Assembly: GCA_007122335.1 (NCBI GenBank)
Contig: SKTZ01000037.1
Location: forward strand, 1-49,376
Reading direction: 5' to 3'
Length of the DNA: 49,376 nucleotides
DNA from: Bacillota bacterium
Lineage (GTDB): Bacteria; Bacillota; Halanaerobiia; B1SED10-174
The notes beneath the pieces were generated by a model. It was not told where the DNA came from, ran no database searches, and worked only from the letters and a program-made list of their open reading frames with translations. The position numbers and the translations under genes are program-made. Below are positions 307 to 18,126 of this stretch, in pieces (within the stretch, counting starts at the first letter, position 1; every line of letters begins with the position of its first letter).

Positions 307-1068
307 TTAAGAATCTGGGGATATCTCAATTTTTATTTCCTGGTGAGGTTTAAAACCCTCCAGGGTCTGCAGGTAACCCTTAATAATTCCGGCCAGGGCT
401 TCCTGGACAAATGGAACCATGGCCAGTTCCTTCCCCCCAATACTTACTTTAACCCTACTATTCTGGAGTACACACTCACTGGCCTGTCCCTTACCCTTTA
501 AGATATCTGCGAGGAGTTCACGGCAGGATCTGCCGCAGGCCTCACAGCACTCTGAAGGGAAGTCAGGAAGAAGAGGGGGTGTTTTTTCCAGGATCAGGTC
601 GGTGAGTTCCCGAACTTTTCTCCGGGCATCAAAAAGGGGAGGGTAATCCGAAGGGAAGTGTTTTTCCCCCTGTGAAGTTATCAGGCCTGCAATGGCAAGG
701 GTTTGGGGGGTTTTTAGCTCTTCCACGTCCCCGGAATTGCGAGCACATAAGATCTGGGGAACATTCAAATCCCGATCTCCTTCAATAATAACAATGTCGT
801 GGTGATAAAAGGAAAGGATTTCCTGAAGAGGAACCTGGTAGGGGAAAATAATATTGGTTTCAAAAAGACCCCGGCCGGTAACAAGTTCCGCTCCTGCTTC
901 TCTGTGACGGTGCGTATTCGAACCCGGTGTCTCCATGGAAAAATTTTCATAGTGAATGTCCTTAATGGAGCCCACGCTAAAATTGCGGTGCTTGAATTCC
1001 CGGATTAAATTTTCTACAGTTGTTGTTTTTCCAGAACCGCTTATTCCAATTACAGAAATAACTTTCAT
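307..1068 (-). CDS. mobB: MobB-like molybdopterin-guanine dinucleotide biosynthesis GTPase with Cys-rich C-terminal domain
   Basis: The protein has 253 residues. A P-loop GISGSGKTT lies at residues 8-16, followed by VGSIKDIHYENFSMETPGSNTHRHREAGA-type sequence. In MobB proteins this stretch (K-x-x-H, D-x-x-G-x-D/N-x-x-R/H) contacts nucleotide and metal. 'IIEGDRDLNVPQI' matches the family's GxK/D-rich second motif. After about residue 165 there is an added domain with CCEACGRSC and another Cys (SECVLQ), which could bind a metal or Fe-S cluster. MobB assists MobA in attaching GMP to molybdopterin. The start codon overlaps the ecfT stop (TAATG), so translation is coupled. No moa, moe or mobA gene is visible here, so MobB sits with a transporter rather than with synthesis genes. 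This supports a cofactor-related substrate. Confidence 0.85.
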   Translation of the reverse strand: MKVISVIGISGSGKTTTVENLIREFKHRNFSVGSIKDIHYENFSMETPGSNTHRHREAGAELVTGRGLFETNIIFPYQVPLQEILSFYHHDIVIIEGDRDLNVPQILCARNSGDVEELKTPQTLAIAGLITSQGEKHFPSDYPPLFDARRKVRELTDLILEKTPPLLPDFPSECCEACGRSCRELLADILKGKGQASECVLQNSRVKVSIGGKELAMVPFVQEALAGIIKGYLQTLEGFKPHQEIKIEISPDS

Positions 1069-1808
1069 TAAATCAACCCTTTCAGGTGAAGAGTTACCAG
1101 GATAAGGCCCCCGGTAAGGCTGAGAATAATTGTTGTGTAATCACCTTTTTTGAGTTTAAGAGAGTGAAGAAAAGTCCTCCGGGGATAGGACCGGAAGGCC
1201 CTGGCTTCCATGGCCAGGGCAATTTGTTTGGAGCGGAGGATGGCCATGGTTACAAGGGGTAAAAAAAGGCTTTTATAAATTCTCAACTGCTGGGACCAGG
1301 ACATTCTTTTGAGGTCAACCCCTCTCAGTTGCAGGGCGGTAAAGACATCATTTGCTTCCTCCCGCAAAAGGGGCAGAAACCTGATCCCCAGGGATACCAT
1401 GTAAGCAAGTTCATACGGCAAAGACCAGGCCACCAGGCCCTGGACAAAACGGGCTGGAGGAGAACTGGCCAGAATTAAACCACAGCAGAGGATAATGAAA
1501 AGGCGGAGGACAAGACTGGTCCCCTGGAGAATTCCCTCCAGGGTTACAAGGGGGTATTGGCCAACTGTAATTAATGGGGTCGTCCCGGGATAGAAAACTG
1601 CCTGGATCAGGACAAGCCCCCCCAGGATTATCAGCAAACGGCGCATTCTAGTGACAATTTTCAGGGGGTTGCAGGCAAAGAGGGGAAGGAGAGCAAGGGC
1701 CAGGAAAAGGATTGGAACCAGGTAAATGGGGTGGTTAAAAATTACGGCAAGAGTTGCCAGAACTCCACTTAAAACAAATTTGCTGCGGGGATCCAATTCT
1801 TTCAGCAT
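1068..1808 (-). CDS. ecfT: ECF transporter transmembrane component EcfT
   Basis: The protein has 246 residues and several hydrophobic helices in the N-terminal half (about 15-35, 55-75, 95-115), with a cytoplasmic helical arm following. The two coupling motifs expected in EcfT are visible: LQLRGVDLKRM near residue 155 and AMEARAFRSYPRR near residue 200. These helices contact the two EcfA ATPases. It overlaps ecfA upstream by 7 nt and mobB downstream by 1 nt, so it is in the middle of a tightly coupled operon. EcfT joins the ATPases to a substrate-specific S component. The S component here is the fusion protein encoded at 3678-5549, so this looks like a dedicated (group I) ECF system rather than the shared housekeeping module. 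Confidence 0.9.
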   Translation of the reverse strand: MLKELDPRSKFVLSGVLATLAVIFNHPIYLVPILFLALALLPLFACNPLKIVTRMRRLLIILGGLVLIQAVFYPGTTPLITVGQYPLVTLEGILQGTSLVLRLFIILCCGLILASSPPARFVQGLVAWSLPYELAYMVSLGIRFLPLLREEANDVFTALQLRGVDLKRMSWSQQLRIYKSLFLPLVTMAILRSKQIALAMEARAFRSYPRRTFLHSLKLKKGDYTTIILSLTGGLILVTLHLKGLI

Positions 1809-2470
1809 TGGACCACCCCTTCCACAAGCTGGCCGTTTTTTAATTCTCGTACGCAGCTGGCCAGCTTCCCGGCAAACTGGTGGTCGTGGCTGATAAGCAG
1901 TATTCCCCTGTTTTTTTGCAATAATTTATGAAGGTAAAAATAGAGTTCTTCTTTGCGCCGGGGATCCAGGCCTGTTGTTGGTTCATCGAGGATAAAAAAA
2001 GGTGGATCTAAAGCCATAATTGCTGCTAAAGCAAGGCGCTGTCTTTCCCCCTGGCTCAGGGTGAAGGGGAATTTTTCCCGGAGGCGCTCCAGGTCAAAAA
2101 AATCAAGGAGTTCATTTACTTTATTCCGGTTTTCTTCGAAATTTTTATTCCGGAACTGGAGGGCAAATCCCACTTCTTCTTCAACACTTGAACAGAATAA
2201 CTGACGGTTGGGGTTTTGAAACAAATAACCAACACGCTCCCCGATTTTTGCCAGGGATAGATTTTCAAGGTTTTGCCTGTCAACGGAAAGCTGGCCCTTT
2301 TCGGGCTTGATAATTCCGATCAGTAATTTGCTCAAAGTTGTTTTTCCCGACCCGTTGGCTCCCAGGAGAGCTATGCATTCGCCCCTGCCGAGTTCAAGGT
2401 TAATATTTTCCAGCAAAAAAGGCTGATCTTTTTGATAACGAAAATAAAGGTTTCTGGCAATTAAAGCCAT
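1802..2470 (-). CDS. ecfA2: ECF transporter ATPase (EcfA, second)
   Basis: The chosen start is the ATG at 2470, because GGAG lies 9 nt upstream. A TTG at 2479 would overlap the previous stop and lacks good spacing. About 222 residues. Walker A is GANGSGKTT, the Q-loop region reads YLFQNPNRQLF (typical of EcfA and CbiO), the signature is LSQGERQR, Walker B is FFILDEPTTGLD and the switch His is in LISHDHQF. ATP hydrolysis in the EcfA pair drives toppling of the S component during import. The FQNPxxQ motif separates ECF ATPases from classical importer ATPases. The end overlaps ecfT. Confidence 0.92.
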   Translation of the reverse strand: MALIARNLYFRYQKDQPFLLENINLELGRGECIALLGANGSGKTTLSKLLIGIIKPEKGQLSVDRQNLENLSLAKIGERVGYLFQNPNRQLFCSSVEEEVGFALQFRNKNFEENRNKVNELLDFFDLERLREKFPFTLSQGERQRLALAAIMALDPPFFILDEPTTGLDPRRKEELYFYLHKLLQKNRGILLISHDHQFAGKLASCVRELKNGQLVEGVVQC

Positions 2471-2475
2471 GGCAT

Positions 2476-3153
2476 TCAACTCCAGCAGGCCTTTCCGTTT
2501 TCCAGGTGCAACAAACGGTCAGAGGCTACGAGATTTTCCAGTTGATGATCAACCAGGATTAAGCTTTTTCCAGCTTTTTTAAGGGGCAAGATAATTTCCT
2601 GGACTCTTTGTCGTCCCGCCCGGTCCAATTGGGAAAGGGCTTCATCAAGAATGAGGGTGTGGGGTCGCAAAGCAAGGACTGATCCCAGGGCCAGGAGTTG
2701 TTTTTCACCCCCGGAAAGTCGGCCAGGGTTTGTATAACGGTACTGGGTCATTCCTGTAAGTTCAAGAACTTCTTTAATTCTTTGTTCAATTTCTTCGGGA
2801 GGTAAACACAGGTTTTCCGGGCCAAAAGCGATTTCTTCTTCCACTGTTGTGCAGAATAACTGGGTTTCCGGATCCTGGAAAACCATCCCTATTTTTTGGG
2901 AAAGCCTGGGGAGGGGAATGGAAGAGAGGGGTTGTTCATCTACCAGAATTTCACCAATGATATTTCCGGGAAGGTGGCGGGGAATAATTCCGCTTAAACA
3001 ATAACAGAGGGTGCTCTTACCACAACCACTGGGTCCTGTAATTCCAAGTACTTCTCCCGGGTTAAGGTTGAAATTTAGGTTTGTCCAGAGGGGAAGATTT
3101 TCATCGGGGAAAGAGAAGGTAAAATTTTTAACGACCAGCCTGTTTCCACTCAT
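2476..3153 (-). CDS. ecfA1: ECF transporter ATPase (EcfA, first)
   Basis: 225 residues. Walker A GPSGCGKST occupies residues 40-48. The Q-loop region reads MVFQDPETQLFC, the ECF-specific FQDPxxQ pattern. The signature is LSGGEKQ, Walker B is LILDEALSQLD and the H-loop is LVDHQL. The D-loop/Walker B sequence 'ALSQLD' replaces the more common 'PTSALD', a modest divergence. It overlaps the sulfite-oxidase-like gene at 3150-3674 by 4 nt. With the second EcfA it would form the heterodimeric motor of this transporter. Confidence 0.92.
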   Translation of the reverse strand: MSGNRLVVKNFTFSFPDENLPLWTNLNFNLNPGEVLGITGPSGCGKSTLCYCLSGIIPRHLPGNIIGEILVDEQPLSSIPLPRLSQKIGMVFQDPETQLFCTTVEEEIAFGPENLCLPPEEIEQRIKEVLELTGMTQYRYTNPGRLSGGEKQLLALGSVLALRPHTLILDEALSQLDRAGRQRVQEIILPLKKAGKSLILVDHQLENLVASDRLLHLENGKACWS

Positions 3154-3674
3154 TCTACCGTCACCCGGGTCAGATATTTACACCAGCGCATGGCAAATTC
3201 ATCCTGGAGGACAACTGTCATGAAGGGACCGTCTCCTCCTTCTTCCCTTGGTTCAAGCCATTCTCCTTCCCGGGCGTAGACCAGGTAAATATTATTTTCT
3301 TCCAGTACCTCATCGGAAGTGTAGGCAATGGTATAACCATCTGCAGCCCGGGCAGTTACCCGTTCAGCTTCTGCAAGCGCTTCGGGGAATACATGGTTAA
3401 GGACTTCATAAAGAGGGACTCCGGTGAAAAAGATTTCGGTATCCTCTGCGGTGCTGCTGCGCCTGATGGTCCTGATATTTGTTGCTTTCAGGTCAAGGAT
3501 TTCATCAAGAGTTAAATCAACTGCTTCACCAGCAAAACTTACACGCAGAATTCTTTCTCTTAATAATTCTCTTTCTTCCTCTATCCCGCCGATATTGGTT
3601 ATGACCAGTGAAATAATAATGATAGCAAAAAGGCCCATAATCCAGTAAATCTGCTTTGATTTCAATTCTTTCAT
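3150..3674 (-). CDS. Membrane-anchored sulfite-oxidase-like (molybdopterin-binding-like) small domain protein
   Basis: 174 residues. One N-terminal transmembrane segment (about residues 10-27, WIMGLFAIIIISLVITNIGG) would anchor an extracytoplasmic domain. The domain follows the pattern of oxidoreductase molybdopterin-binding (SUOX) folds. It has a leading beta segment, FFTGVPLYEVL, then VTARAADGYTIAYTSDEV, NNIYLVYAREGEWL, GPFMTVVLQDEFAMRWCKYLTRVTVE. In sulfite oxidase-type proteins this region forms the dithiolene-cofactor pocket. I do not see the catalytic Cys of sulfite oxidase in its usual context, so a binding rather than a redox role is likely. Start ATG at 3674 follows AAGGAGG. It lies between the S-component fusion and the ATPases, so it may be a substrate-capture accessory. 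Fold call is by pattern and would need structure prediction. Confidence 0.62.
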   Translation of the reverse strand: MKELKSKQIYWIMGLFAIIIISLVITNIGGIEEERELLRERILRVSFAGEAVDLTLDEILDLKATNIRTIRRSSTAEDTEIFFTGVPLYEVLNHVFPEALAEAERVTARAADGYTIAYTSDEVLEENNIYLVYAREGEWLEPREEGGDGPFMTVVLQDEFAMRWCKYLTRVTVE

Positions 3675-3677
3675 TTT

Positions 3678-5549
3678 TTAATTACCTCCTTGCAGGTGAA
3701 AAAAAGGAACAATCAAATCCTGGTAATAAAAACGGCCGTGGTTACCTCCGTCAGAGGTTTTTCTCATTCCGTGATCCGGAATTATTAAAATGTCTCCAGG
3801 CCAGGTGGAAGAAAGTTCCTGGAGATATCCGTTCAAAATGGATAGAGTTTCCATGGTCCGCTGATGGAAAGGACCGTATTCGTGGCCGGCAATATCCAGG
3901 GATTTGAAGTGGATAAACAATATGTCGTAATCTTCATTAGCCATATCCCGGGCCGTGATAATTATTTCTTCATCACCTCCGGGGTGGAGAATTGGCTCAA
4001 ATTCCGAATAAAGGGGATTAATTGCTCCCTGCAGACTGGCGACCTTCAAACCCTGTTCTATAGAAAAATCGAGGATATTTTGAACTCGGGGTTCTCGGTC
4101 CCTTCGCTGGTGAATACCTGTCCTGGGGGGAAGTTCACCGGTTAAAAGTGAAGCAGTATTCACATTGGTAATCGGTGGGTAGGCCACCCTGGCCATCTTG
4201 GTTCCCTCCCGGGAACCGAGAAAGGGAATAATGCCATTTTCCCGGGCATAAAGGTACTGGTCATAACCAAAACCATCCAGCAATATTAAAAGCACACTCT
4301 GGTTATCTTCAAGCAGGGTTTTAATTCTGGGGACAATGGAGATGATGGAAATTTGGGGAGGCTCAAACATTAAACCGGCCAGGTTTTCCAGAAGTTCTTT
4401 TCCTTCTTGATCAACAAGGGTAAAGGAGTTGTTCTCAAAAGAAATGTACTGGCCCCTGTTATCATAGAAAACCTCTTCTCCCGCCAGGCTTACGGCGAGG
4501 AAAGGACCGGTATATTCTGCAAAATATTTTTCAAGTTTAATTAAAGGCTCGGCCCGGTTTTGAACCAGGAATTCTCCAGGCGTCATTTGGAAAAGATTTT
4601 TCGCGGGAGTAATGATGCCCAGGGGAGCGGCATCTCCCAGGACAATTATCTCCTTAATTCCCGGTAGTCTATTTTCTTTTGCCACTCCACCCAGTTTCCA
4701 GGTGTTGTTTTCGCCATCGATTTCCAGGAAAATTTCACCTGAGGCGGGGGATGAAATTGTTACTGTTTCGTTATTTTCTCCCCGCAGGAAAACCTCCTGC
4801 AGACCAAGTGGTTCCGCTTTTTCCAGAACTTCTTTTAGGGAGGTTCGCTCCCCTGAAAAAAAAGAGATAGTATAGGGATTTTCTACATCTCCCTTTATTT
4901 CAAGCGGGGGGATCGTGGTTTTTATATTTCCGGCATCAGAACAACCGGTTAAAAATATTGAGAAGATTATCAGGGCAAAGACCCCTGGTTTTAAAACGTT
5001 TTTGAAGAGAGGAGTTTTTTCCAGCTGGCGAAGCAATTGAAAACAGATAATTCCCCCACCTCCCCCGGAAAAAGCGCCCAGGAAAAGAGACAGGAGCAGA
5101 GGTATAAGGGGCAGGCGGAAAAAAACCACATTAACCAGGAAGGTTCCGCTCAGGTTAGCGAGAATTCCGGCGATAAAACAATGAAAAATTGTTGCTTTCC
5201 GGGGCTGGCCCAGGAGAAAAAGTCCTAAATCTACAGTTAAACCGGGGAGGATATAGGTCATAAGGCTCAAAACTCCGTGGGAACCAACTACTCCCAGGGC
5301 CATTACAAGGATAGCCTGGATTAAACAGGTGATGGTGGCAGCCCCATTTTTATTAACCAGAAACCGGGCCAGGACAATCCACATCATATAAAGTCCACCG
5401 GCCAGTGCTCCTCCGGGAATAAACAGGGGAGCGGTTATCATATGCACAAGAGGAGTAATTATTGGTTTTGTTGCTATACCTAAAACAGCCATCATGGCCA
5501 TCAGGGTCAGGTCGAACATGGAAAACCTTAAAAGGTAGCGATGCAGCAT
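3678..5549 (-). CDS. ECF S component fused to extracytoplasmic SUOX-like and alkaline-phosphatase/NPP-fold domains
   Basis: 623 residues in one frame. Residues 1-175 contain about six hydrophobic helices resembling an ECF substrate-binding S component: compact, with a Pro/Gly-rich PLFIPGGALAGG, and a multi-Gly stretch at 161-166. Residues 186-203 look like a lipoprotein signal (VFALIIFSIFLTGC, Cys203 in an LTGC lipobox) but internal, so probably a seventh membrane segment. Residues 210-410 look extracytoplasmic, starting PPLEIKGDVENPYTI, which resembles a SUOX-fold entry. Residues 415-623 are an alkaline-phosphatase superfamily hydrolase. Metal ligands can be placed at D425 (LLDGFG), D552/H556 (SLDIAGHEYG), D592/H593 (PDHGM) and H604 (GNHGRF), with the nucleophile region YPPITNVNTASLLTG. 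Such hydrolases cleave phosphodiesters or phosphomonoesters. Inference: the enzyme trims a phosphorylated or nucleotide-bearing ligand before uptake. Start ATG follows GGGAGGT. Confidence 0.75.
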   Translation of the reverse strand: MLHRYLLRFSMFDLTLMAMMAVLGIATKPIITPLVHMITAPLFIPGGALAGGLYMMWIVLARFLVNKNGAATITCLIQAILVMALGVVGSHGVLSLMTYILPGLTVDLGLFLLGQPRKATIFHCFIAGILANLSGTFLVNVVFFRLPLIPLLLSLFLGAFSGGGGGIICFQLLRQLEKTPLFKNVLKPGVFALIIFSIFLTGCSDAGNIKTTIPPLEIKGDVENPYTISFFSGERTSLKEVLEKAEPLGLQEVFLRGENNETVTISSPASGEIFLEIDGENNTWKLGGVAKENRLPGIKEIIVLGDAAPLGIITPAKNLFQMTPGEFLVQNRAEPLIKLEKYFAEYTGPFLAVSLAGEEVFYDNRGQYISFENNSFTLVDQEGKELLENLAGLMFEPPQISIISIVPRIKTLLEDNQSVLLILLDGFGYDQYLYARENGIIPFLGSREGTKMARVAYPPITNVNTASLLTGELPPRTGIHQRRDREPRVQNILDFSIEQGLKVASLQGAINPLYSEFEPILHPGGDEEIIITARDMANEDYDILFIHFKSLDIAGHEYGPFHQRTMETLSILNGYLQELSSTWPGDILIIPDHGMRKTSDGGNHGRFYYQDLIVPFFHLQGGN

Positions 5550-5552
5550 TAT

Positions 5553-6605
5553 TTATACCTCCCCATCAACAGCCTTTATCAATAAAATTTCCCGGATGTG
5601 AAAATTGCGAGGCAGGTGGGAAAAATGAACTCGAAAACTGCCGTCATCAAGCAGTCTTATTATCCCCTGTCGGGTGTCTTCTAGAGAAATTTCAATTGAA
5701 AAACCATCAACAGCCTCTATTATCAGGTCATTGCTCCAGCCCAGGCCGGCTTTTTCAATAAATTTATCCAGGGCAGTTCCCTGCTCGCCGTTAACTTCCA
5801 TCTGCAGCAGGTCATTAACCCAGTTAGACCAGAAAACAACTTTTTCTTTATCCAGTTGAATTGAACTCAGATGTTTTACCTGGCGCCCGGAATGCAGATT
5901 TTCTCCAGAAAAAGTTGGGCCTTTAGGATCTTCCGTATCAATATAGGTGCCGGCAATATCTGATAAACGCTCGGTCTTGGTCTTGCCATCATCGGCGGTG
6001 AGTACAATGAAATCGCTTGAGGCCTGGAGTTCTTCGACGATAGCAGATATATTTATTTGGGGATCAAATAATTCCATTTTGGAGACCAGGGATGAGAAAA
6101 GGTAAACTGTATTGACTTGTTTCTCGAAAAGGACCCCCTCCAGTTCTGCCCGGATGCAGTTGCGAACCCAGTACATCATTTCCTCTCCCGGAATGATAAT
6201 CCGAACCGGTTGTTCGTTATCCGCAAGCCTTTGTCCATTGTCCCGGAAAAGAGCCAGCAAAATTTCCCTGTTCTGGAATATTTCCGGGGGAATCTGGACA
6301 ACGTAGCCGTCACCAGCTATGAAACGAAGTCCTTCCAGGCCTTCCTGGGAGTGGCCTTTGCTTTCCAGAATGGTCTGTAATAGAACGCCCTGATAGTGTC
6401 GTTTTTGGTCTTCCACCTGGACCGTTATTTCCTTTTGTTCCAGGGATTTGAGAAAAACAGGAGTTAAACTGAGTTTTTCTCCGTTGGGAAGAATTATTTC
6501 GAAAACCCATTCCACCCGCCCGCAGGGTCCTGCTTCGGCGGGTTGTAAAAAGGAAGTTGTTAGCAGCAGAAAAACCAAACTAATTAGAAACAGAATTTTT
6601 TTCAC
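5553..6605 (-). CDS. Secreted tandem sulfite-oxidase-like (molybdopterin-binding-like) protein
   Basis: 350 residues, GTG start at 6605 after GAGGAGG. The signal peptide covers residues 1-25, ending LQPAEA, with no lipobox. Domain 1 (about 30-160) has GVLLQTILES, GLRFIAGDGYVVQIPPE, ALFRDNGQRLADNEQPVRI and GEEMMYWVRNCIRAEL, the order of strands and helices seen in SUOX-fold molybdopterin-binding domains. Domain 2 (about 180-350) repeats the layout: TALDKFIEKAGL, LIIEAVDGFSIEISLED, GIIRLLDDGSFRV. No catalytic Cys context is apparent. It is the first gene after the riboswitch and terminator, so it is the most directly regulated member of the operon. A role as a periplasmic or surface cofactor-binding protein is inferred; it could instead be a degenerate-fold structural protein. 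Confidence 0.65.
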   Translation of the reverse strand: MKKILFLISLVFLLLTTSFLQPAEAGPCGRVEWVFEIILPNGEKLSLTPVFLKSLEQKEITVQVEDQKRHYQGVLLQTILESKGHSQEGLEGLRFIAGDGYVVQIPPEIFQNREILLALFRDNGQRLADNEQPVRIIIPGEEMMYWVRNCIRAELEGVLFEKQVNTVYLFSSLVSKMELFDPQINISAIVEELQASSDFIVLTADDGKTKTERLSDIAGTYIDTEDPKGPTFSGENLHSGRQVKHLSSIQLDKEKVVFWSNWVNDLLQMEVNGEQGTALDKFIEKAGLGWSNDLIIEAVDGFSIEISLEDTRQGIIRLLDDGSFRVHFSHLPRNFHIREILLIKAVDGEV

Positions 6606-6684
6606 AAAAAATTTCCTCCTCGGATTATTTATTTTGGTTGGTGTAATTATTATTAAATAATTTATTGTCTCTCCCGAAAGCTAC

Positions 6685-6710
6685 ATAAAAAAACCTCCGG
6701 GAAGGAGGTC
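6685..6710 (-). terminator. Intrinsic terminator of the riboswitch expression platform
   Basis: On the minus strand ACCTCC-TTCCC-GGAGGT is followed by seven or more T residues, a compact rho-independent terminator. It lies between the aptamer (6728-6823) and the first gene (start 6605), so it would stop transcription before the ECF operon. The sequence CTCCTTCC in its 5' arm and loop can alternatively pair with GGAAAGGAG, the 3' side of the aptamer's closing stem. That gives mutually exclusive antiterminator and terminator states. Confidence 0.85.
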
Positions 6711-6727
6711 AGGTCCAGACTAAAGCA

Positions 6728-6823
6728 CCACTCCTTTCCACACCGGGAGGCACAGCCGTTTCCAGCGGCACCCTATCGGCTTGAGGCCAGCCCAAAAGGG
6801 GTAAGGCATTCAAGCTCGGAGTC
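6728..6823 (-). ncRNA. Moco-family (molybdenum/tungsten cofactor) riboswitch aptamer
   Basis: The minus-strand RNA starts ACUCCGAGC, contains CCGCUGGAAACGG and UGCCUCCCGG, and ends GGAAAGGAGUGGU. I recognise these blocks as the conserved core of the Moco RNA motif. Visible pairing: P1 ACUCC (6822-6818) with GGAGU (6734-6730); a stem GCUUGA/UCAAGC enclosing a CCC-UUUU-GGG hairpin; and a hairpin GCCG-CUGGAAA-CGGC. The class is known upstream of Mo/W cofactor synthesis and Mo/W transport genes, with variants (Tuco) assigned to tungsten cofactor. Ligand-stabilised P1 would free the terminator arm at 6685-6710, giving an OFF switch. I cannot tell Moco from Tuco by eye. The downstream genes (SUOX-like folds, ECF transporter, MobB) fit the assignment. 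Confidence 0.8.
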
Positions 6824-6932
6824 AATTTTCTTTTCCTAATCTTTATTCGTGAATACCCCGGGAACCCCTTTATTTTTTGCAGGAAATTTTATAATAAAAG
6901 GAGAAATTGTTAGAAAATGTACAAGGCGAGGG

Positions 6933-8681
6933 GTGGTTTTCCTGGAAAGAAAAATTATTTTTTATTTTTTCCTTTTATTACTTTTCCTTTATTGCCCGGT
7001 TGTAGATGCATTGGATATCCCCGAAGTAACCATTGAGGATGGAGTTTTACGGGCTGGCTCGGGGTGGAGAATTGACCTGGAAGGACTGCGGGTAGGTTTT
7101 TTGAGTGGGAGCCCGGAGGAGATTGGTATGCAGCACGGCCTTTTAATGACCGATGACCCGGAAGAACTCAGGCAGAAAATGCTGGATAAGCAGCCCTTTG
7201 CTCATCCTGAAACTCTGGGGGAGAGGCTCACAGGGTTTTTCCTCAATACCTATGCCCGTTTTCAGTTTTACCCCGCTTTTTTAAGGCATACATCCGAGGA
7301 ATATATTCGGGAAATGCGCGGCTTTGTCCTGGGAGCCTCCGGGGGAGAGGAAGAAGACATTTACGATGTTATGATGGGCAATGCTGCTCAAGATCTTGAA
7401 ATTGCTGCATGTTCGGCTTTCGCTGCCTGGGGCGAGGCAACCCAGGATGGGGAAATTTACGTTGGTAGAAACCTGGACCACGGGGGAATGCTGGATCTGG
7501 CGGGCTACCAGGTCCTGGCCATTTATAATCCTGAAAAGGGTTACCGCTTTGCTGTTCATAATTACCCGGCTTTTGTGGGAACAATGAGTGGAATGAATGA
7601 AAAAGGGCTGGTTATTAGCTCCAATTATTCAATGGCCCGCAGGGAGGAAATAACAATCAATGGACTTCCCTACATGTTTATGTTACGCAATGTTCTCCAG
7701 AACGCAGCTACAATCAATGAAGCACTGGAAATAATCAAAAATACACCCCGAACAATTGGGTTAACCCTGCTTTTAGCTGATGGGAAAACTCCAGAAGCTG
7801 TTGTAGTGGAAATAACCGCTAATAGGATGCAGGTAAGAACTGGAGAAGATTATATCTTCGCTGCCAACCGCTATTTACATCCCGAGATGAAAGAATTTCA
7901 GGCGGGAGGCTGGCTGGCTTCAGCCCTGCGCGAGAAGCGCTTACAGGAGCTGATTACCGATAAATTCTGGGGTGAGATTGACGTCCCCATCACCCGTGAT
8001 ATCATGCGGGACCGATTGCCTCCGGAAGGTTTTAACCAGGAGAACTTTGGGCAGGGTATCAACCATGAAGTGAATATGGCTTCAATGGTTATGGTTCCCT
8101 CCCGGGGGGAATTCTGGGTGGGAGCAGTAGATGATTCTGAAATCCCTTTTGCCGCTGATGCCCACTTTGTTGGGGTTGATGTCCGGAAAATCTGGGAAAC
8201 AGGGGAACCACCCCGGGAACCAATTGGAATTTTGCAGGCAACCCCCCGGGAAGGATACGAGGGTTACTGGTTTAAGGCCAGGGAAGCTAACCTTCTTTTA
8301 GGCCAGGGCAAAAGAGAAGAAGCCCTAGAGCTCCTGGAAGAAGTTTTATCTGCTTACCCCCGGGCGGAAATGCCCCTGCTCATGGTAGGAAGGGCCCTGA
8401 TAAGACAGGGGGAAATAGAGAAGGGGACTGCATACCTGGAGCGCTTTGCAGCCCTTGAGAATCATAGCGAACCATTCCATCAGATGGAAGGTTATTTCTG
8501 GCTGGCTGTGGTTTACGATCAGGTTGGAGAGAGGGAGAAGGCAGTAGAGTATTACAGAAGAAGTTTGCAGGTCCAGATTGAGGATATGCCTCCTGTCGAA
8601 GGCGGTTACCATTATTTCGCCGAAAAGGGACTTGAAACTCCGCTAAAGTTAACTCCCGAGGGGAGGGTTTATATCCCGTGA
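6933..8681 (+). CDS. Secreted C45-family autoproteolytic acyltransferase/amidohydrolase with TPR tail
   Basis: From the GTG at 6933 the protein has 582 residues and begins with a signal or anchor segment (basic ERK, then about 13 hydrophobic residues, then PVVDA). An upstream in-frame GTG at 6849 would add 28 residues with no signal character, so 6933 is preferred, although its ribosome binding site is weak. Residues about 50-430 match acyl-CoA:6-aminopenicillanate acyltransferase-like Ntn hydrolases. There is GSPEEIGMQHG, then Cys160 in AACSAFAAWG, which would become the N-terminal nucleophile after self-cleavage, GRNLDH, VGTMSGMNEKGLVISSN and HEVNMASMVMVPS. Residues about 450-560 form TPR-like helices (EALELLEEVL, KAVEYYRRSL). 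Its stop overlaps the GTG of the Omp85 gene (GTGA). Substrate unknown; amide hydrolysis of an acylated amine at the cell surface is plausible. Confidence 0.78.
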   Translation: MVFLERKIIFYFFLLLLFLYCPVVDALDIPEVTIEDGVLRAGSGWRIDLEGLRVGFLSGSPEEIGMQHGLLMTDDPEELRQKMLDKQPFAHPETLGERLTGFFLNTYARFQFYPAFLRHTSEEYIREMRGFVLGASGGEEEDIYDVMMGNAAQDLEIAACSAFAAWGEATQDGEIYVGRNLDHGGMLDLAGYQVLAIYNPEKGYRFAVHNYPAFVGTMSGMNEKGLVISSNYSMARREEITINGLPYMFMLRNVLQNAATINEALEIIKNTPRTIGLTLLLADGKTPEAVVVEITANRMQVRTGEDYIFAANRYLHPEMKEFQAGGWLASALREKRLQELITDKFWGEIDVPITRDIMRDRLPPEGFNQENFGQGINHEVNMASMVMVPSRGEFWVGAVDDSEIPFAADAHFVGVDVRKIWETGEPPREPIGILQATPREGYEGYWFKAREANLLLGQGKREEALELLEEVLSAYPRAEMPLLMVGRALIRQGEIEKGTAYLERFAALENHSEPFHQMEGYFWLAVVYDQVGEREKAVEYYRRSLQVQIEDMPPVEGGYHYFAEKGLETPLKLTPEGRVYIP

Positions 8682-9814
8682 AAAACTTAACCCTGGCGAT
8701 TTTAATTTTCAGCCTTTTGTGTGTTTCGGCAAGCGAAGTAGAAGCTTCGGGAAATTGTAAAATAGAAGAAATTATCGTGCTGGGCCTAACCCGGACCGAG
8801 GAAAGAATTGTCCTGGCTCAGCTGCCTTTTTCTGAAGGAGATCAGTGGAAAGAAGAGTACCGGATATGGACCCTGCGCAGATTGCAGCTTTTGGATTTCT
8901 TTGCTTATGACCCGCTGCGGGTAATAGTTGAACCCCTGGGGAATGAAAAATGTCGGATCATTGTTCGAGCTGCAGACCCGGCAGTATTGTACAAAGAACC
9001 AATGGAATTTGTTATTACTAAAGCAGTGGACCTTCTATTCAGGCAATTTAACCTCTCTTTATTTAATCCCGGGGGGATTGGAAGCAGTTTAAAATTTTAT
9101 GGAGGCTGGGGAAATTACAGGAACCTGGGAATGACAGTTTCCAGTCCACTTGGAGCAGGCCTTGGTTCTGCTGGTGGACAAATTTATTCGAATTCCACAG
9201 GATTCTATAAGGAAAGTGGGCTGGTTTTCAAGGGTGACTACAGCAGTTGGGTTAACCCTTCAACTCGTTTAACGGGTGGAATTGATTACCGGACCGGGGA
9301 ACTTAACGAACAAAAGCAGATAATTTTGCTGCCCCGGGGAGAATTATATTATAATAATGAGTTTAGGGGAGAGATAAAGGCTGCGGCAGGATTTTCTTTT
9401 ACCGGGGAAAAACCTTTTTACCGACTCCAGGGGCAGGCCCTGGGAGAGCTGGGCTCATTTGTTGGTTTGATCAGAGGGGGCTTTATGGCAGGAGAACCCC
9501 CCCCCTTAAATTATCATTTCCGCCTGGGAGGGTTTGGCCTTATTCCCCTGCGAGGCCAACCAGTTGAACTGGCCCAAAATTACCTTTTAGGAACTTTAGA
9601 ATATCATTTTCAGACTCCCCAGTTTATACCCATCCTTTTTGCTGACTGGGGCTGGTATAGCCCCGGGGGAACAGGTGGAAATATTAATATCGGGGCGGGA
9701 CTGGCAATGGAAATTCCTCTCGGGGTAATCAGGGCTGATTTTGCCTGGAGCCCTGTTCGGGGAACTACTGGTTTTAATATTGGTTTTGGTCACAGCTACC
9801 GCCCCCCATTTTAA
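8678..9814 (+). CDS. Omp85/BamA-like outer-membrane protein with POTRA domain
   Basis: 378 residues. The signal peptide is about 1-23 (LTLAILIFSLLCVSASEVEA). One POTRA domain follows at about 26-105: CKIEEIIVLGLTRTEERIVL, then WTLRRLQLLDFF and a closing strand CRIIVRA. From about 120 the sequence alternates Gly/aromatic beta strands (FYGGWGNYRNLGMTVSS). It contains the Omp85 loop-6 pattern GGFGLIPLRGQ (RG core) and ends in a short strand with terminal Phe (GFGHSYRPPF), the usual outer-membrane sorting signal. BamA homologues usually carry more POTRA domains, so this is a short, specialised member. It is coupled by overlap to the C45 hydrolase gene, which it may help to place at the surface. 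Its presence implies a diderm envelope. Confidence 0.8.
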   Translation: MKNLTLAILIFSLLCVSASEVEASGNCKIEEIIVLGLTRTEERIVLAQLPFSEGDQWKEEYRIWTLRRLQLLDFFAYDPLRVIVEPLGNEKCRIIVRAADPAVLYKEPMEFVITKAVDLLFRQFNLSLFNPGGIGSSLKFYGGWGNYRNLGMTVSSPLGAGLGSAGGQIYSNSTGFYKESGLVFKGDYSSWVNPSTRLTGGIDYRTGELNEQKQIILLPRGELYYNNEFRGEIKAAAGFSFTGEKPFYRLQGQALGELGSFVGLIRGGFMAGEPPPLNYHFRLGGFGLIPLRGQPVELAQNYLLGTLEYHFQTPQFIPILFADWGWYSPGGTGGNINIGAGLAMEIPLGVIRADFAWSPVRGTTGFNIGFGHSYRPPF

Positions 9815-13436: not shown

Positions 13437-14669
13437 GTGGAACATCTACAAAACTTTGATTCGGAAATATTCGAACTTATCGGTGAAGAAAAAGCGAGAC
13501 AGAAGCGAAATCTGGAATTGATTGCTTCAGAAAATTTTGTTTCCCCGGCGATTTTAGAAGCTACAGGGTCCTGTTTAACCAATAAATACGCTGAAGGCTA
13601 TCCGGGACGGAGGTATTACGGGGGTTGTGAGGTTGTAGATAAGGTTGAAATGCTGGCTATTAAAAGGCTAAAAGAGCTTTATGGTGCTGAACACGCCAAT
13701 GTTCAGCCTCATTCCGGTTCTCAGGCCAACCAGGCTGTTTATTTTGCCAAGATTCCCGTAGGAGGAGCAATGCTGGCCATGGATCTCTCCCATGGGGGCC
13801 ATCTGACCCACGGGAGTCCGGTAAACCTTTCCGGAACCTATTACAAGGTGGGGCACTACGGGGTAACCAAGCATAAAGAAATTATTGATTATGATCTGGT
13901 AGAAAAAATGGCCCAGGATTTGAGACCCAGGATGATAATTGCCGGAGCAAGTGCCTATCCCCGAATTATTAACTTCCAAAGATTCCGGGAGATAGCCGAT
14001 AATGTTGGGGCCCTGTTTATGGTTGATATGGCCCATATCGCGGGACTCGTAGCGGCAGGACTCCATCCCAACCCTGTACCTTATGCTGATTTTGTAACTT
14101 CTACCACTCACAAAACCCTGCGGGGAATTCGCGGGGGTTTTGTCCTCTGCAAGGAAGAGCACGCAAAAGCAGTTGACAAGGCTTTATTCCCCGGGATTCA
14201 AGGGGGACCATTGATGCATATAATTGCCGCCAAGGCTGTTGGCTTTAAGGAAGCCGCAACTGAAGAATTTAATAAATATCAGCAGAGGATAATTGATAAT
14301 GCCCAGGCCCTTGCCAAAGCACTGCAGGGTTATGGTTTGCGCCTGGTATCTGATGGGACTGACACCCACCTTATTCTTGTTGACCTGAACAATGTTAAGA
14401 TTACCGGGAAAGAAGCCGAGGAACTCCTCGACCGGATTGGTATTACGGTTAATAAAAATACCATTCCTTTTGAGACCAAAAGTCCATTCGTTACCAGCGG
14501 GATCAGGATTGGAACTCCTGCTGTAACAACCCGGGGAATGGGTCCCGATGACATGCAGGAAATAGCCCGGTTTATTTTTGAGGCCCTGTCCCATAAAGAT
14601 GACGAATCGTACCTGGATAAACTTGAGGAGGAAACTCGGGAATTTTCCGAGCAGTTTGATGAAGTTTAA
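13437..14669 (+). CDS. glyA: Serine hydroxymethyltransferase
   Basis: 410 residues, the normal bacterial length. GTG start at 13437 follows GAGGAGGG. The enzyme interconverts serine plus tetrahydrofolate and glycine plus methylene-tetrahydrofolate. Visible motifs: [12 protein letters not shown] and [17 protein letters not shown] near the N-terminus, the Asp of [13 protein letters not shown] that binds the PLP ring nitrogen, and the PLP Lys226 in [12 protein letters not shown]. The 3' end overlaps bshC by 11 nt, so one-carbon/serine metabolism and bacillithiol synthesis are coupled here. Serine is the precursor of the cysteine that BshC adds, which gives a metabolic reason. Confidence 0.97.
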
Positions 14670-16272
14670 TTTCTTCCACAGCGAACTGCATAAAGACTAT
14701 ACCCTTAACTTTCAACGGGTTGACGGATTTTATCAGTACCCTCCCCGGGTGGAATCATTAACCCACCGTTGCGGAAAAATGCCTGAGAATTCACATCGGG
14801 ACCTTCTGGCAAAAATTTTAAGGGAGTATAATGTCCGGCTTGGGGCGCCGGAGGATGTTCTGGAAAATATCGACCTGCTGGCCGAACCAGGAACGGCGGT
14901 AATAATTGGCGGCCAGCAGGCCGGACTTTTTACCGGTCCCCTGATGACCCTTTACAAAGCAATGGATATTATTAACAGGGCTCAGGAGGCTTCTCAGAAA
15001 ACTGGCCGCCCTGTTGTTCCTGTTTTCTGGGTTCCGGGAGATGACCATGATTTCAGGGAGGTTAACCACCTCTGGATAACAGATTCGGAAAATAAAAACC
15101 AGAAAATAAGCCTGAATTCTCCTTTCCAGACCCGACCCATTAGTTTTATTCCAAGGAAAGAATCCTTTTTGGAAGCAGTTAATGCACTGGAAAAGAAAAC
15201 CCCCCGGGGAAGGTTCAAGAATAACTACCTGGATTTGCTCCGGGAAACAGGACAGAAATCGGGGTCTCTGGGAGAATGGTTTGCAAGGATTATGATTTCC
15301 CTCCTGGGTCATCAGGGCCTAATCCTTTTTGATCCCATGGCCAGTGGTGTGGCTGAATTGAAGAAGGAATTTATTTCTCTTTTTAAACCTGCTGCCTCTG
15401 ATTTTTACCAGGCAGTTTCGAAAAAAGAAAAAGAACTGGAAGAGGCAGGGTACCACGTCCAGGTCCAAAAAGATAACCGCCACACCAACTTTTTTGTCAT
15501 CCTTGGGGGAGAAAGACGGCCTGTTTTTAAGCAGGGGAACCGCTTTCAGAGCAGGGGAGGAGATCTGGATTTGACCGAGGATGAATTCTGGGATTTAATG
15601 GAAAAAGAACCCGCGAGCTTCAGTCCAGACGCTCTTTTAAGGCCAATTTTCCAGGATTTTGTTTTCCCGGTTCTGGCTTCAATAAACGGCCCCGGAGAGC
15701 TTGCCTACCAGGGACAGCTCCGCTTGGGATATCGAACCATGGGCCTTGAACAACCCCCGCTTTTTCCTCGGAAGAGTTTAACCCTGGTTGAGGAAAGGCT
15801 TTTACGCCACATGGAAAAATGGGAGGTAGCTCCCCGGGAGTTTTTAGAAGAAGGAGAAAAACTATGGGATAAAATTGTTTTCCGGCATACGGGAGTAGAT
15901 TTGGAAAATATTTTTAATCCTAGCCGCAGAGAAATCAGGGAGATTTACGAACAATTAATGGCTGAATTAAAAAACGTTCACCCCAACTTAGAGGATCTGG
16001 CCTGTAAAAACCTTAAAAGGATTTTAAAGGAAGTGGATTACCTGGAGGGAAGAAGCCGGGAATTCCAGGTTGAAAAAGAGAAAACCCTTTCCCGGCAGTT
16101 TGATAAAATATTAAACAGCCTTTATCCCGGAGAAAAGCTCCAGGAAAGGGTTTTAAATGTTTTTCCTTTTTTAATGAGATATGGCCCTGAATTACTGGGA
16201 ATAATTCAGAAGGGCCTGAAAGAGCTAAAAGAAGAACACGGTTTTTTAACAACGGATGGACGGTGGAAATAA
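14659..16272 (+). CDS. bshC: Bacillithiol biosynthesis cysteine-adding enzyme BshC
   Basis: 537 residues from the ATG at 14659, close to the usual length of about 540. BshC joins cysteine to glucosamine-malate in the last step of bacillithiol synthesis. The N-terminal nucleotide-binding region has [21 protein letters not shown], and [13 protein letters not shown] matches the family's 'DHD' motif. [10 protein letters not shown] lies before the coiled-coil C-terminal domain (about 390-500, charged helical). Identification is strengthened by the two adjacent bsh genes. Translation is probably coupled to glyA, because no strong ribosome binding site precedes this start. Confidence 0.93.
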
Positions 16273-16288
16273 CAGGAGGTTGAAGTTT

Positions 16289-16999
16289 ATGATTGATATT
16301 GCTGCATACGGGGCTCACCCGGATGATCTTGAACTGGCAATTGGTGGAACGATAGCAGCTCACGTGGATAAGGGTTTTCGGGTTGTTGGGATTGACCTGA
16401 CCCGGGGAGAAAAGGGAAGTAATGGGACCCCCCAGTTAAGGGCAAAGGAAGCAGCAGAAGCCGCAGAAGTTCTAGGGCTCTGGCAGAGGCATAACCTGGG
16501 GCTTCCCGACCTGGGAGTTAAGTTGGATGATGATCAGCTTGCTGTTGTTGTGGAATCCATTCGCCAGCTTCGACCAAAGCTGATTCTTTCTCCATATTGG
16601 TTTTCCCATCATCCCGATCATGAAAATGCTGGCAGTTTATTGCGTAAGGCATTTTTTGTTTCCGGACTGAAAAATTTTGTGACAAAAAGCCCTCCCTACC
16701 GGGCTGAAAGGATATTTTACTTTGCCCTACCCCAGCACGTAAACCCGACCCTGATTGTTGATATTTCAGATTATTTCCAGAAGAAACTGGAGGCTATTGA
16801 AAAATATGAATCCCAGTTCAGCAGGGAAGGGAAGGCTTTTCCTACCAATATTAACGCCCCCGGCTTCTGGAAGAGAATTGAGAGCGGCAATCTTTACTGG
16901 GGCAGGCAGGCTGGAGCCATTTATGGCGAGCCTTTTTATTCTCCCAGGGCCCCTCTGGTTCCAGATCTTTTCTGGGGAGAAAAGGAGAATAACCAATGA
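16289..16999 (+). CDS. bshB: Bacillithiol biosynthesis deacetylase BshB
   Basis: 236 residues. The ATG at 16289 follows AGGAGG; an in-frame ATG at 16256 lies within bshC and lacks this site. This is a zinc LmbE/PIG-L deacetylase with AYGAHPDDLELAIGGT near the N-terminus (zinc ligands His and Asp of HPDD), and HHPDHENAG with the third ligand. It removes acetate from GlcNAc-malate. Order bshC-bshB-bshA gives all three pathway enzymes in one operon. The stop overlaps the bshA start (ATGA). Confidence 0.95.
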   Translation: MIDIAAYGAHPDDLELAIGGTIAAHVDKGFRVVGIDLTRGEKGSNGTPQLRAKEAAEAAEVLGLWQRHNLGLPDLGVKLDDDQLAVVVESIRQLRPKLILSPYWFSHHPDHENAGSLLRKAFFVSGLKNFVTKSPPYRAERIFYFALPQHVNPTLIVDISDYFQKKLEAIEKYESQFSREGKAFPTNINAPGFWKRIESGNLYWGRQAGAIYGEPFYSPRAPLVPDLFWGEKENNQ

Positions 17000-18126
17000 A
17001 AATAGGTATAGTGTGTTTTCCTTCATATGGGGGCAGCGGGGTTCTGGCAACTGAACTGGGCTGGCACCTGGCCAATTTAGGTCATCAGGTCCACTTTATT
17101 AGCTACGACCAGCCCTTTCGTCTCAAGTTTCACGAAAATATTTTTTACCATCCTGTTAACACCCCCCACTATGACCTCTTCCCCTTTCCTCCCTATTACC
17201 TGGCCCTGGTTAATAAAATAGCCCAGGTGGTTGAAGAAGAGGAGTTGGATCTCATCCATGCCCATTACGCTGTCCCCCACGCCCTCGCTTGCCAGCAGGC
17301 TCTGGCAATGGTTGTTGGTAAGGAAGTAGGGCTTGTTACTACTCTGCACGGGACAGATATTACCCTTGTGGGGAATAATGAGTCCTTTTTCAGGACTACC
17401 CGTTATGCAATTATTAACAGCCCCGGTTTGACTGCAGTTTCCAGGGATCTGGCTAAACTAACCCGGGAGGTTTTTAATATTGAACGCCCAATCCCCTGTA
17501 TCCACAATTTTGTTGATACGAGGGAGTACCAGAGGATGAAGCCAGAAAATATCCCCTGCCGCCTGCGGTACAGGTCCAAAGAAGAAAAGTTGATTATCCA
17601 TATTTCTAATTTCCGGGGTGTGAAAAGAGTTGAGGATTTGATTGAAGTTTTTGACCGGGTTCAAAAGAAAGTTCTGGCGCGCCTGCTTTTAGTCGGGGAT
17701 GGCCCGACCAGGGATAGCGTTGCGGCAAGGGTTCGGGAAAAAGGGCTGGAGAATAGAGTGGTGTTTTTAGGAGCCCAGGACAACGTAGTCCCCCTGCTAT
17801 CAATTGCTGACCTCTTAATTTTACCCTCGGAAAAGGAAGCTTTTGGTCTGGTTAATATTGAAGCCATGGCCTGTGAGGTTCCAGTTCTGGCTACAGAAGT
17901 AGGGGGCATTCCGGAAGTGGTTGTTCACGGGGAGACGGGCTTTCTGGCTCCTGTGGGAGACATTAAAAAAATGACCGAACTGGCTACTCAAATTTTAGAA
18001 AATCCTGATCTGCAGAAAAAAATGGGCCTGGCGGGGCGCCAGCGGGTAATTGACAATTTTTCCAGTGACAGAATTGTTCCCCTGTACCTGGATTATTACC
18101 AGGAGATCAAGGGTGGGAAAAACTGA
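16996..18126 (+). CDS. bshA: N-acetyl-alpha-D-glucosaminyl L-malate synthase BshA
   Basis: 376 residues, a GT-B glycosyltransferase of family GT4. The N-terminal signature CFPSYGGSGVLATELG, HAHYAVPHA and the LHGTDITLVG block are characteristic of BshA, which transfers GlcNAc from UDP-GlcNAc to L-malate. The C-terminal nucleotide-sugar site has LLLVGDGP and the E-x7-E segment PSEKEAFGLVNIEAMAC, followed by EVGGIPEVV. It starts inside the bshB stop and overlaps the following MATE gene. Confidence 0.96.
   Translation: MKIGIVCFPSYGGSGVLATELGWHLANLGHQVHFISYDQPFRLKFHENIFYHPVNTPHYDLFPFPPYYLALVNKIAQVVEEEELDLIHAHYAVPHALACQQALAMVVGKEVGLVTTLHGTDITLVGNNESFFRTTRYAIINSPGLTAVSRDLAKLTREVFNIERPIPCIHNFVDTREYQRMKPENIPCRLRYRSKEEKLIIHISNFRGVKRVEDLIEVFDRVQKKVLARLLLVGDGPTRDSVAARVREKGLENRVVFLGAQDNVVPLLSIADLLILPSEKEAFGLVNIEAMACEVPVLATEVGGIPEVVVHGETGFLAPVGDIKKMTELATQILENPDLQKKMGLAGRQRVIDNFSSDRIVPLYLDYYQEIKGGKN

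Follow-up and report, generated by a model that had tools for sequence, protein, structure and literature searches.

A putative importer for salvage of the pyranopterin molybdenum/tungsten cofactor, encoded behind a Moco-type riboswitch in Bacillota

Group II energy-coupling factor (ECF) transporters for vitamins, such as ThiT, RibU and CblT, combine an S component with two EcfA ATPases and EcfT, and stand under a riboswitch for the presumed substrate; no substrate of the pyranopterin kind has been described for this group. To our knowledge, no bacterial uptake system has been described for molybdopterin, the molybdenum cofactor (Moco) or the tungsten cofactor (Wco), and Moco is generally regarded as too labile for exchange between bacteria. 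Here we describe an operon on contig SKTZ01000037.1 of a Bacillota bacterium (49,376 nucleotides, analysed as a whole and referred to as the window), which runs on the minus strand from 6833 to 307 and consists of a Moco-type riboswitch, a terminator and seven tightly packed genes in the order SuoxL, a fusion of an S component with a lipoprotein carrying a nucleotide pyrophosphatase/phosphodiesterase (NPP) domain, SuoxS, EcfA, EcfA', EcfT and MobB-FeS. It is highly probable that the products of these genes import the pyranopterin Mo/W cofactor for salvage, the tungsten cofactor being the most likely substrate in this organism. The operon resembles the group II systems in its complete ECF gene set, all encoded together, and in its riboswitch, but it differs from them by its dedicated ATPases, encoded in one operon with extracytoplasmic proteins of sulfite oxidase (SUOX) fold and a pyrophosphatase, and by the fusion of the S component to a lipoprotein.

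The same aptamer, in the tungsten-type form that lacks the P3 helix and followed by a terminator, is known from the Moco/Tuco riboswitch regulons (moa, mod, tup) described by Regulski et al. in 2008. In these regulons the riboswitches precede molybdate/tungstate transporters (PMC2408646), whereas the aptamer of the window precedes a putative cofactor importer, of which we found no description there. Dietary uptake in Caenorhabditis elegans is another case in which finished Moco passes from bacteria to a different organism; it differs in that the recipient is an animal and the membrane route unknown, the crossing of membranes by Moco being a stated open question in that work (PMC9793310). Papers on tungsten (PMC9246946, PMC13197769) deal with Tup-type tungstate uptake and with a MoeA1-MobB step of tungsten maturation, not with cofactor import. 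Searches of open-access full text gave nothing relevant on a bacterial Moco/Wco importer, on ECF genes with a Moco riboswitch, or on Moco auxotrophy or cross-feeding. What is new is not the parts of the operon, which are of known kinds, but their combination and the substrate and auxotrophy predicted.

An earlier note, made from the letters of the window only, had read the region upstream of the genes as a Moco-like aptamer plus terminator, and this was borne out by cmscan with RF01055 (E 1e-12; Table 1) and by the terminator stem. The 5' arm of the terminator, CTCCTT (6707-6702), is complementary to the 3' strand of P1 of the aptamer, AAGGAG (6736-6731), and this pairing could act as an antiterminator. 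The P3 positions are deleted in the alignment of the window to RF01055, and none of 58 matches to the model has room for P3. Since the operon riboswitches lack P3, and the P3-less type was tied to the tungsten cofactor by Regulski et al. (PMC2408646), the imported cofactor is more likely to contain tungsten than molybdenum. Under a strict same-strand rule, the aptamer was located upstream of the S-component gene in 40 of the 77 oriented loci; it was also detected at the head of longer operons in additional loci, and the remaining loci often lie on truncated contigs. No riboswitch class other than RF01055 was found ahead of the operon among 26 loci scanned with Rfam, a c-di-GMP riboswitch and a pan motif being present in two of them away from the operon head. 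The objection that homologous operons might stand behind an unrelated riboswitch therefore failed. Separately, 14-18 copies of RF01055 per genome were observed in three genomes (G118, G073 and G100), several of them clustered in tandem, for instance at C21 of G118.

The same gene order was found in about 80 loci, mostly of Bacillota, with RF01055 ahead of it in diverse families, a degree of conservation far above what chance would produce. The genes recur in the order [FMN-binding]-SuoxL-S-phosphodiesterase (PDE)-SuoxS-EcfA-EcfA'-EcfT-MobB-[MoeA]-kinase; Alkaliphilus peptidifermentans, for example, has S, PDE, SuoxS, EcfA, EcfA', EcfT, MobB and the kinase. Relatives of the S component, 43-85% identical across diverse members, were detected in about 20 genera of the phylum sample. 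In the genome collection, 256 stretches hold such a relative, among them stretches from Alkaliphilus, Anaerosalibacter, Clostridium ultunense, Pelotomaculum, Syntrophomonas, Desulfoscipio and records of Dehalococcoidia and Actinomycetota.

The strongest link to cofactor supply is the loss of cofactor biosynthesis in carriers of the operon. MoaA (PF06463) was searched for in 44 genomes, and MoaC (PF01967), MoeA (PF03453), AFOR (PF02730) and the domain binding molybdopterin guanine dinucleotide (MGD; PF01568) in 80. Ten of the 22 carriers of the S component, from six families, lacked MoaA, MoaC and MoeA, and all ten have Mo/W enzymes. MoaA and MoaC were absent, and no MoeA scored above the family cut-off, in the genome of the window (G000), in its five relatives G001-G005, and in G014, G048, G049, G067, G082 and G094, which belong to five other families; all of these carry AFOR and/or MGD-enzyme domains. 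The genome of the window, in which one MoeA_N match stayed below threshold (19.9 bits), thus shows the features tested for a Moco auxotroph, Mo/W enzymes being present and moaA, moaC and moeA absent. Two of these genomes, G001 and G005, were first read as counter-examples, with pathway and S component absent and enzymes present; operon fragments were found at their contig ends. When the remaining proteins of the operon were used as queries, genes for EcfA, EcfA', EcfT and MobB (67-79% identical) were seen to stop 44 bases from a contig end in G001, and SuoxL was detected at a contig end in G005.

When both are counted as operon carriers, MoaC and MoeA are missing together from 12 of 24 Mo/W-enzyme genomes with the operon versus 2 of 42 without it (Fisher p 3e-5, uncorrected for phylogeny, at least six families). 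The two operon-less exceptions (G047 and G065) have one PF01568 match each and no AFOR. Another 12 genomes without the operon have neither the pathway nor Mo/W enzymes, as expected of non-users. Among 50 further operon carriers, 20 lacked MoaA, 19 of these also lacked MoaC, and 18 of the 19 have AFOR. The nineteenth, Anaerosalibacter, has no AFOR, and a molybdopterin oxidoreductase-like gene, as read from the sequence, adjoins its operon (L083). One of the 19 is the complete chromosome CP118523.1 (Clostridiaceae bacterium M8S5), and therefore missing contigs do not explain its lack of moa genes. Nearly all of the carriers with pathway loss encode the tungsten enzyme AFOR. MobA-like genes were retained in the carriers checked, their scores staying under the NCBIfam cutoff and the match in G082 being weak. 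The co-occurrence test proposed beforehand was thus strongly positive: time and again, moaA, moaC and, where it was looked for, moeA are missing from carriers that keep their Mo/W enzymes.

All seven genes were placed by Pfam and NCBIfam where the earlier note had put them, including the two EcfA, the EcfT and the MobB (Table 1; TIGR02454 also for EcfT). Its claim of a SUOX fold for two extracytoplasmic proteins likewise stood, and no other fold emerged. SuoxL falls just under the cutoff of the Oxidored_molyb (SUOX) family (23.5 versus 24), an ortholog scoring 37.5 bits; its AlphaFold model (pLDDT 88) gave PruR (PDB 7kom) as the best Foldseek match (E 7e-8, TM 0.77), followed by sulfite oxidases and YedY. 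Profile comparison indicated one clear SUOX-fold domain and two degenerate SUOX-like repeats in SuoxL. SuoxS scores above the cutoff of the same family, and its profile matches the PruR-like 7kom (E 4e-4). Searches of the PDB with single protein sequences gave no matches. No conserved Cys was found at the Mo-ligand site in alignments of 42 SuoxL and 80 SuoxS sequences, and the SUOX family profile was matched only in part. PruR (7kom, 7kos) is also a secreted SUOX-fold protein without the Mo-ligand Cys, and binds free pterins (PMC13259868). The DGY motif of the window proteins aligns with NDY of 7kom, the position of the D/N-x-Y pterin motif of PruR, and both have a Trp near the domain end. On these models and alignments, the SUOX domains look most like PruR-type pterin binders lacking the Mo ligand. 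PruR signals to DcpA (c-di-GMP), whereas the SUOX proteins of the window are tandem or multiple and linked to a transporter; the pruR-dcpA gene pair was not found here, the partner genes being those of the ECF components, NPP and MobB.

The fusion protein (3678-5549) proved, as claimed, to join an S component to a phosphodiesterase-type domain, the N-terminus matching PF09819 and the C-terminus PF01663 (type I phosphodiesterase/NPP). In addition, it holds an internal lipobox, LTGC, at residues 200-203 and a SUOX-like domain (215-312), which matches repeat 3 of SuoxL with a profile probability of 96% and SuoxS with 88%. This middle domain is of low confidence in the AlphaFold model (misaligned input) and was assigned by separate alignment and profile comparison. 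Most relatives have one gene for the S component and another for the lipoprotein. No PDB relative of the S component was found, even by searching with a profile. The predicted NPP/alkaline-phosphatase fold of the hydrolase was recovered by Foldseek from the AlphaFold model (ENPP3 and Xac NPP, E about 1e-8). Its two-metal site is intact (D425, T461, D552, H556, D592, H593 and H604), the active-site residues being conserved in 37-40 of 41 sequences. Xac NPP and ENPP1/3 share this fold and the complete two-metal site with its Thr nucleophile; the NPP domain of the window differs in its attachment to a SUOX-like domain and an ECF S component, and in MGD as the predicted substrate.

MobB, part of most operons, is nearest to the PRK14494 MobB/FeS family, with invariant P-loop residues and a C-terminal Fe-S-type domain containing conserved Cys174, 175, 178, 182 and 199. 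A 2026 study described MobB as a tungsten-specific partner of MoeA (PMC13197769), which fits the tungsten-type reading of the riboswitch.

We infer the ligand, the direction of transport, the cleavage of MGD and the imported form as follows. At low cofactor levels inside the cell, the riboswitch, presumed from aptamer and terminator to be an OFF switch, would permit transcription. SuoxL, SuoxS and the SUOX-like domain of the lipoprotein would capture extracellular cofactor through a PruR-like pterin site, and the NPP domain would cleave MGD to the nucleotide-free cofactor. The S component with EcfA, EcfA' and EcfT would then import this form. MobB, together with MobA encoded elsewhere, would handle or re-guanylylate the cofactor for formate-dehydrogenase-type enzymes, and AFOR enzymes would use the nucleotide-free form. 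Carriers without moa and moe genes would be cofactor auxotrophs dependent on the operon. Since moeA is missing and MobA and MobB are kept, import of a metal-loaded, nucleotide-free cofactor with optional guanylylation is the simplest scheme for the genome of the window. The salvage reading of the earlier note is thus supported by RF01055, by the SUOX fold, by the same riboswitch on homologs and by the co-occurrence with moa loss, transport itself being predicted; it is refined by the tungsten-type riboswitches, the PruR-like nature of the SUOX domains and the operons with kinase and MoeA, which point to a possible dephosphorylated substrate. On a wider scale, we lean slightly towards the view that many Bacillota, and some organisms among the Actinomycetota and Dehalococcoidia records, are obligate Wco/Moco auxotrophs, and that metal-loaded cofactor is captured by SUOX proteins, trimmed by NPP, imported by ECF and traded among anaerobes.

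If true, the genes of the first bacterial Moco/Wco importer would be named, cofactor auxotrophy would become predictable from genome sequence, and there would be a reason for the presence of tungsten enzymes where moa genes are missing from the genome. The operon would also offer a means of studying the cofactor or of supplying it, of relevance to human Moco deficiency. In Syntrophomonas wolfei, riboswitches ahead of 'sulphite oxidase' genes were reported as exceptions to the rule that P3-less means tungsten (PMC2408646); these genes may encode SuoxL-type capture proteins instead of Mo enzymes, so the importer may account for these exceptions as well.

Several points weigh against the salvage importer. 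In the first set, every second carrier of the operon has retained moa genes, and in these the operon serves salvage or something else. Pathway loss was judged from MoaA, MoaC and MoeA, and most genomes examined are metagenome-assembled genomes (MAGs). No riboswitch was detectable ahead of the operon in G063, G109, G082, G094 and G118. The absence of moeA from the genome of the window demands either import of metal-loaded cofactor or an unknown insertase, and the kinase was not found there in a search with the sequence of one relative. A review of PruR considers its pocket probably too small for Moco (PMC13259868), and it is for this reason not certain that a pocket of this type would take up the whole cofactor.

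As a sub-case of cofactor salvage, the substrate might be a Moco precursor or breakdown product (metal-free molybdopterin, dephospho-molybdopterin or another pyranopterin), phosphorylated inside by the kinase and metallated by MoeA/MobB. An APH-like kinase with invariant K50, D151, N156 and D170 is the last gene of many operons, and in L084, L093 and L111 a gene for MoeA follows that for MobB and precedes that for the kinase (by Pfam in L084 and L111); in such operons a dephosphorylated, perhaps metal-free form may be imported and then re-phosphorylated and metallated. An enzyme of the alkaline phosphatase superfamily could also perform the dephosphorylation. The genus of the window, however, has neither MoeA nor, by that one search, the kinase, and the retention of MobA suits import of finished cofactor; we regard the sub-case as possible but, on balance, somewhat doubtful.

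It is very improbable that nothing but molybdate or tungstate is transported, with unrelated roles for the SUOX and NPP proteins and with a riboswitch that simply shuts down metal uptake at high cofactor levels. There are ECF systems for Co/Ni, and Moco riboswitches do precede oxyanion transporters, as noted above, but metal uptake alone cannot yield the cofactor in the at least 12 carriers that keep Mo/W enzymes without MoaA, MoaC and MoeA, and constant linkage to proteins of pterin-binder fold and a pyrophosphatase would be senseless for an oxyanion. Even less credible is import of another pterin, folate-type or a signalling tetrahydropterin, with the SUOX proteins as receptors: the nearest fold matches are the PruR proteins, which bind tetrahydromonapterin (PMC13259868), but the Moco-specific riboswitch, the MobB and MoeA genes in the operon, and the tie to Mo/W enzymes and moa loss speak for the Mo/W cofactor. 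That the SUOX-like proteins are sulfite-oxidase-type Mo enzymes supplied with metal by the ECF genes, as the PF00174 annotation and the listing of the S. wolfei genes as putative sulphite oxidases (PMC2408646) might suggest, deserves hardly any credence given the missing Mo-ligand Cys and the partial profile match.

Table 1. Features of the operon, in window coordinates
Feature	Position	Strand	Basis
Moco/Wco riboswitch aptamer (RF01055), P3-less	6715..6833	-	cmscan 62.3 bits, gathering score 36
Intrinsic terminator	6692..6710	-	stem, then T5+
SuoxL, secreted, SUOX-fold	5553..6605	-	AlphaFold, Foldseek, profile comparison, Cys scan
S component, residues 1-190 of fusion	4980..5549	-	PF09819 48.9 bits
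Lipobox LTGC (Cys203) and SUOX-like domain (about residues 215-312)	4614..4950	-	sequence, profile comparison
NPP/alkaline-phosphatase-fold pyrophosphatase domain	3678..4307	-	PF01663, Foldseek, residue conservation
SuoxS, membrane-anchored single SUOX domain	3150..3674	-	PF00174 29.5 bits
EcfA ATPase	2476..3153	-	TIGR04520 E 2e-58
EcfA' ATPase	1802..2479	-	TIGR04520 E 4e-52
EcfT (CbiQ/EcfT) transmembrane component	1068..1808	-	PF02361 95 bits, TIGR02454
MobB GTPase with C-terminal Fe-S-type domain	307..1068	-	PF03205 81 bits, PRK14494 models

Variants of the operon were also observed. Stand-alone RF01055-SuoxL-PDE-SuoxS cassettes without ECF genes are located at L034:2747-6563, L035:2449-6018 and L056:2997-6774; in the genus of the window, there are two in G002 and one in G004. 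These are perhaps extra capture units using the transporter of the main operon. In the main operons of G002 (L033) and G003 (L032), the NPP part is lost or broken by stops, as is SuoxL in G002, and intact PDE copies are present elsewhere in the G002 genome. A secreted FMN_bind protein (PF04205) is encoded first behind the riboswitch at L038:6737-7237, L042:7542-8072 and about 20 other loci, accompanied by NapH-like membrane proteins in Clostridium and Desulfoscipio loci; an extracytoplasmic redox step is possible for these genes. A FecBCD-type ABC transporter and a protein of about 249 amino acids are inserted in the operon at L079:6270-9958, L091 and L115, and this transporter may be a molybdate/tungstate or metallophore importer. 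Pyrrolysine insertion motifs (mttB) were detected near the operon of a Halanaerobiales MAG (L048:490-589 and 1934-2033).

The host assembly of the window (2.4 Mb, 97.8% complete) has Halobacteroidaceae MAGs as its closest named relatives, and the sample labels T1Sed10/B1Sed10 are apparently those of sediment. The operon adjoins divergent genes at 6849-9814, one for a C45 acyltransferase-TPR protein and one whose product is weakly BamA/Omp85-like, which suggests a diderm host; the same flank is present in G002 and G004. Further along the window, at 13437-18126, glyA precedes the complete set of bacillithiol pathway genes (bshC, bshB1 and bshA), in a genome that is Halanaerobiales-like.

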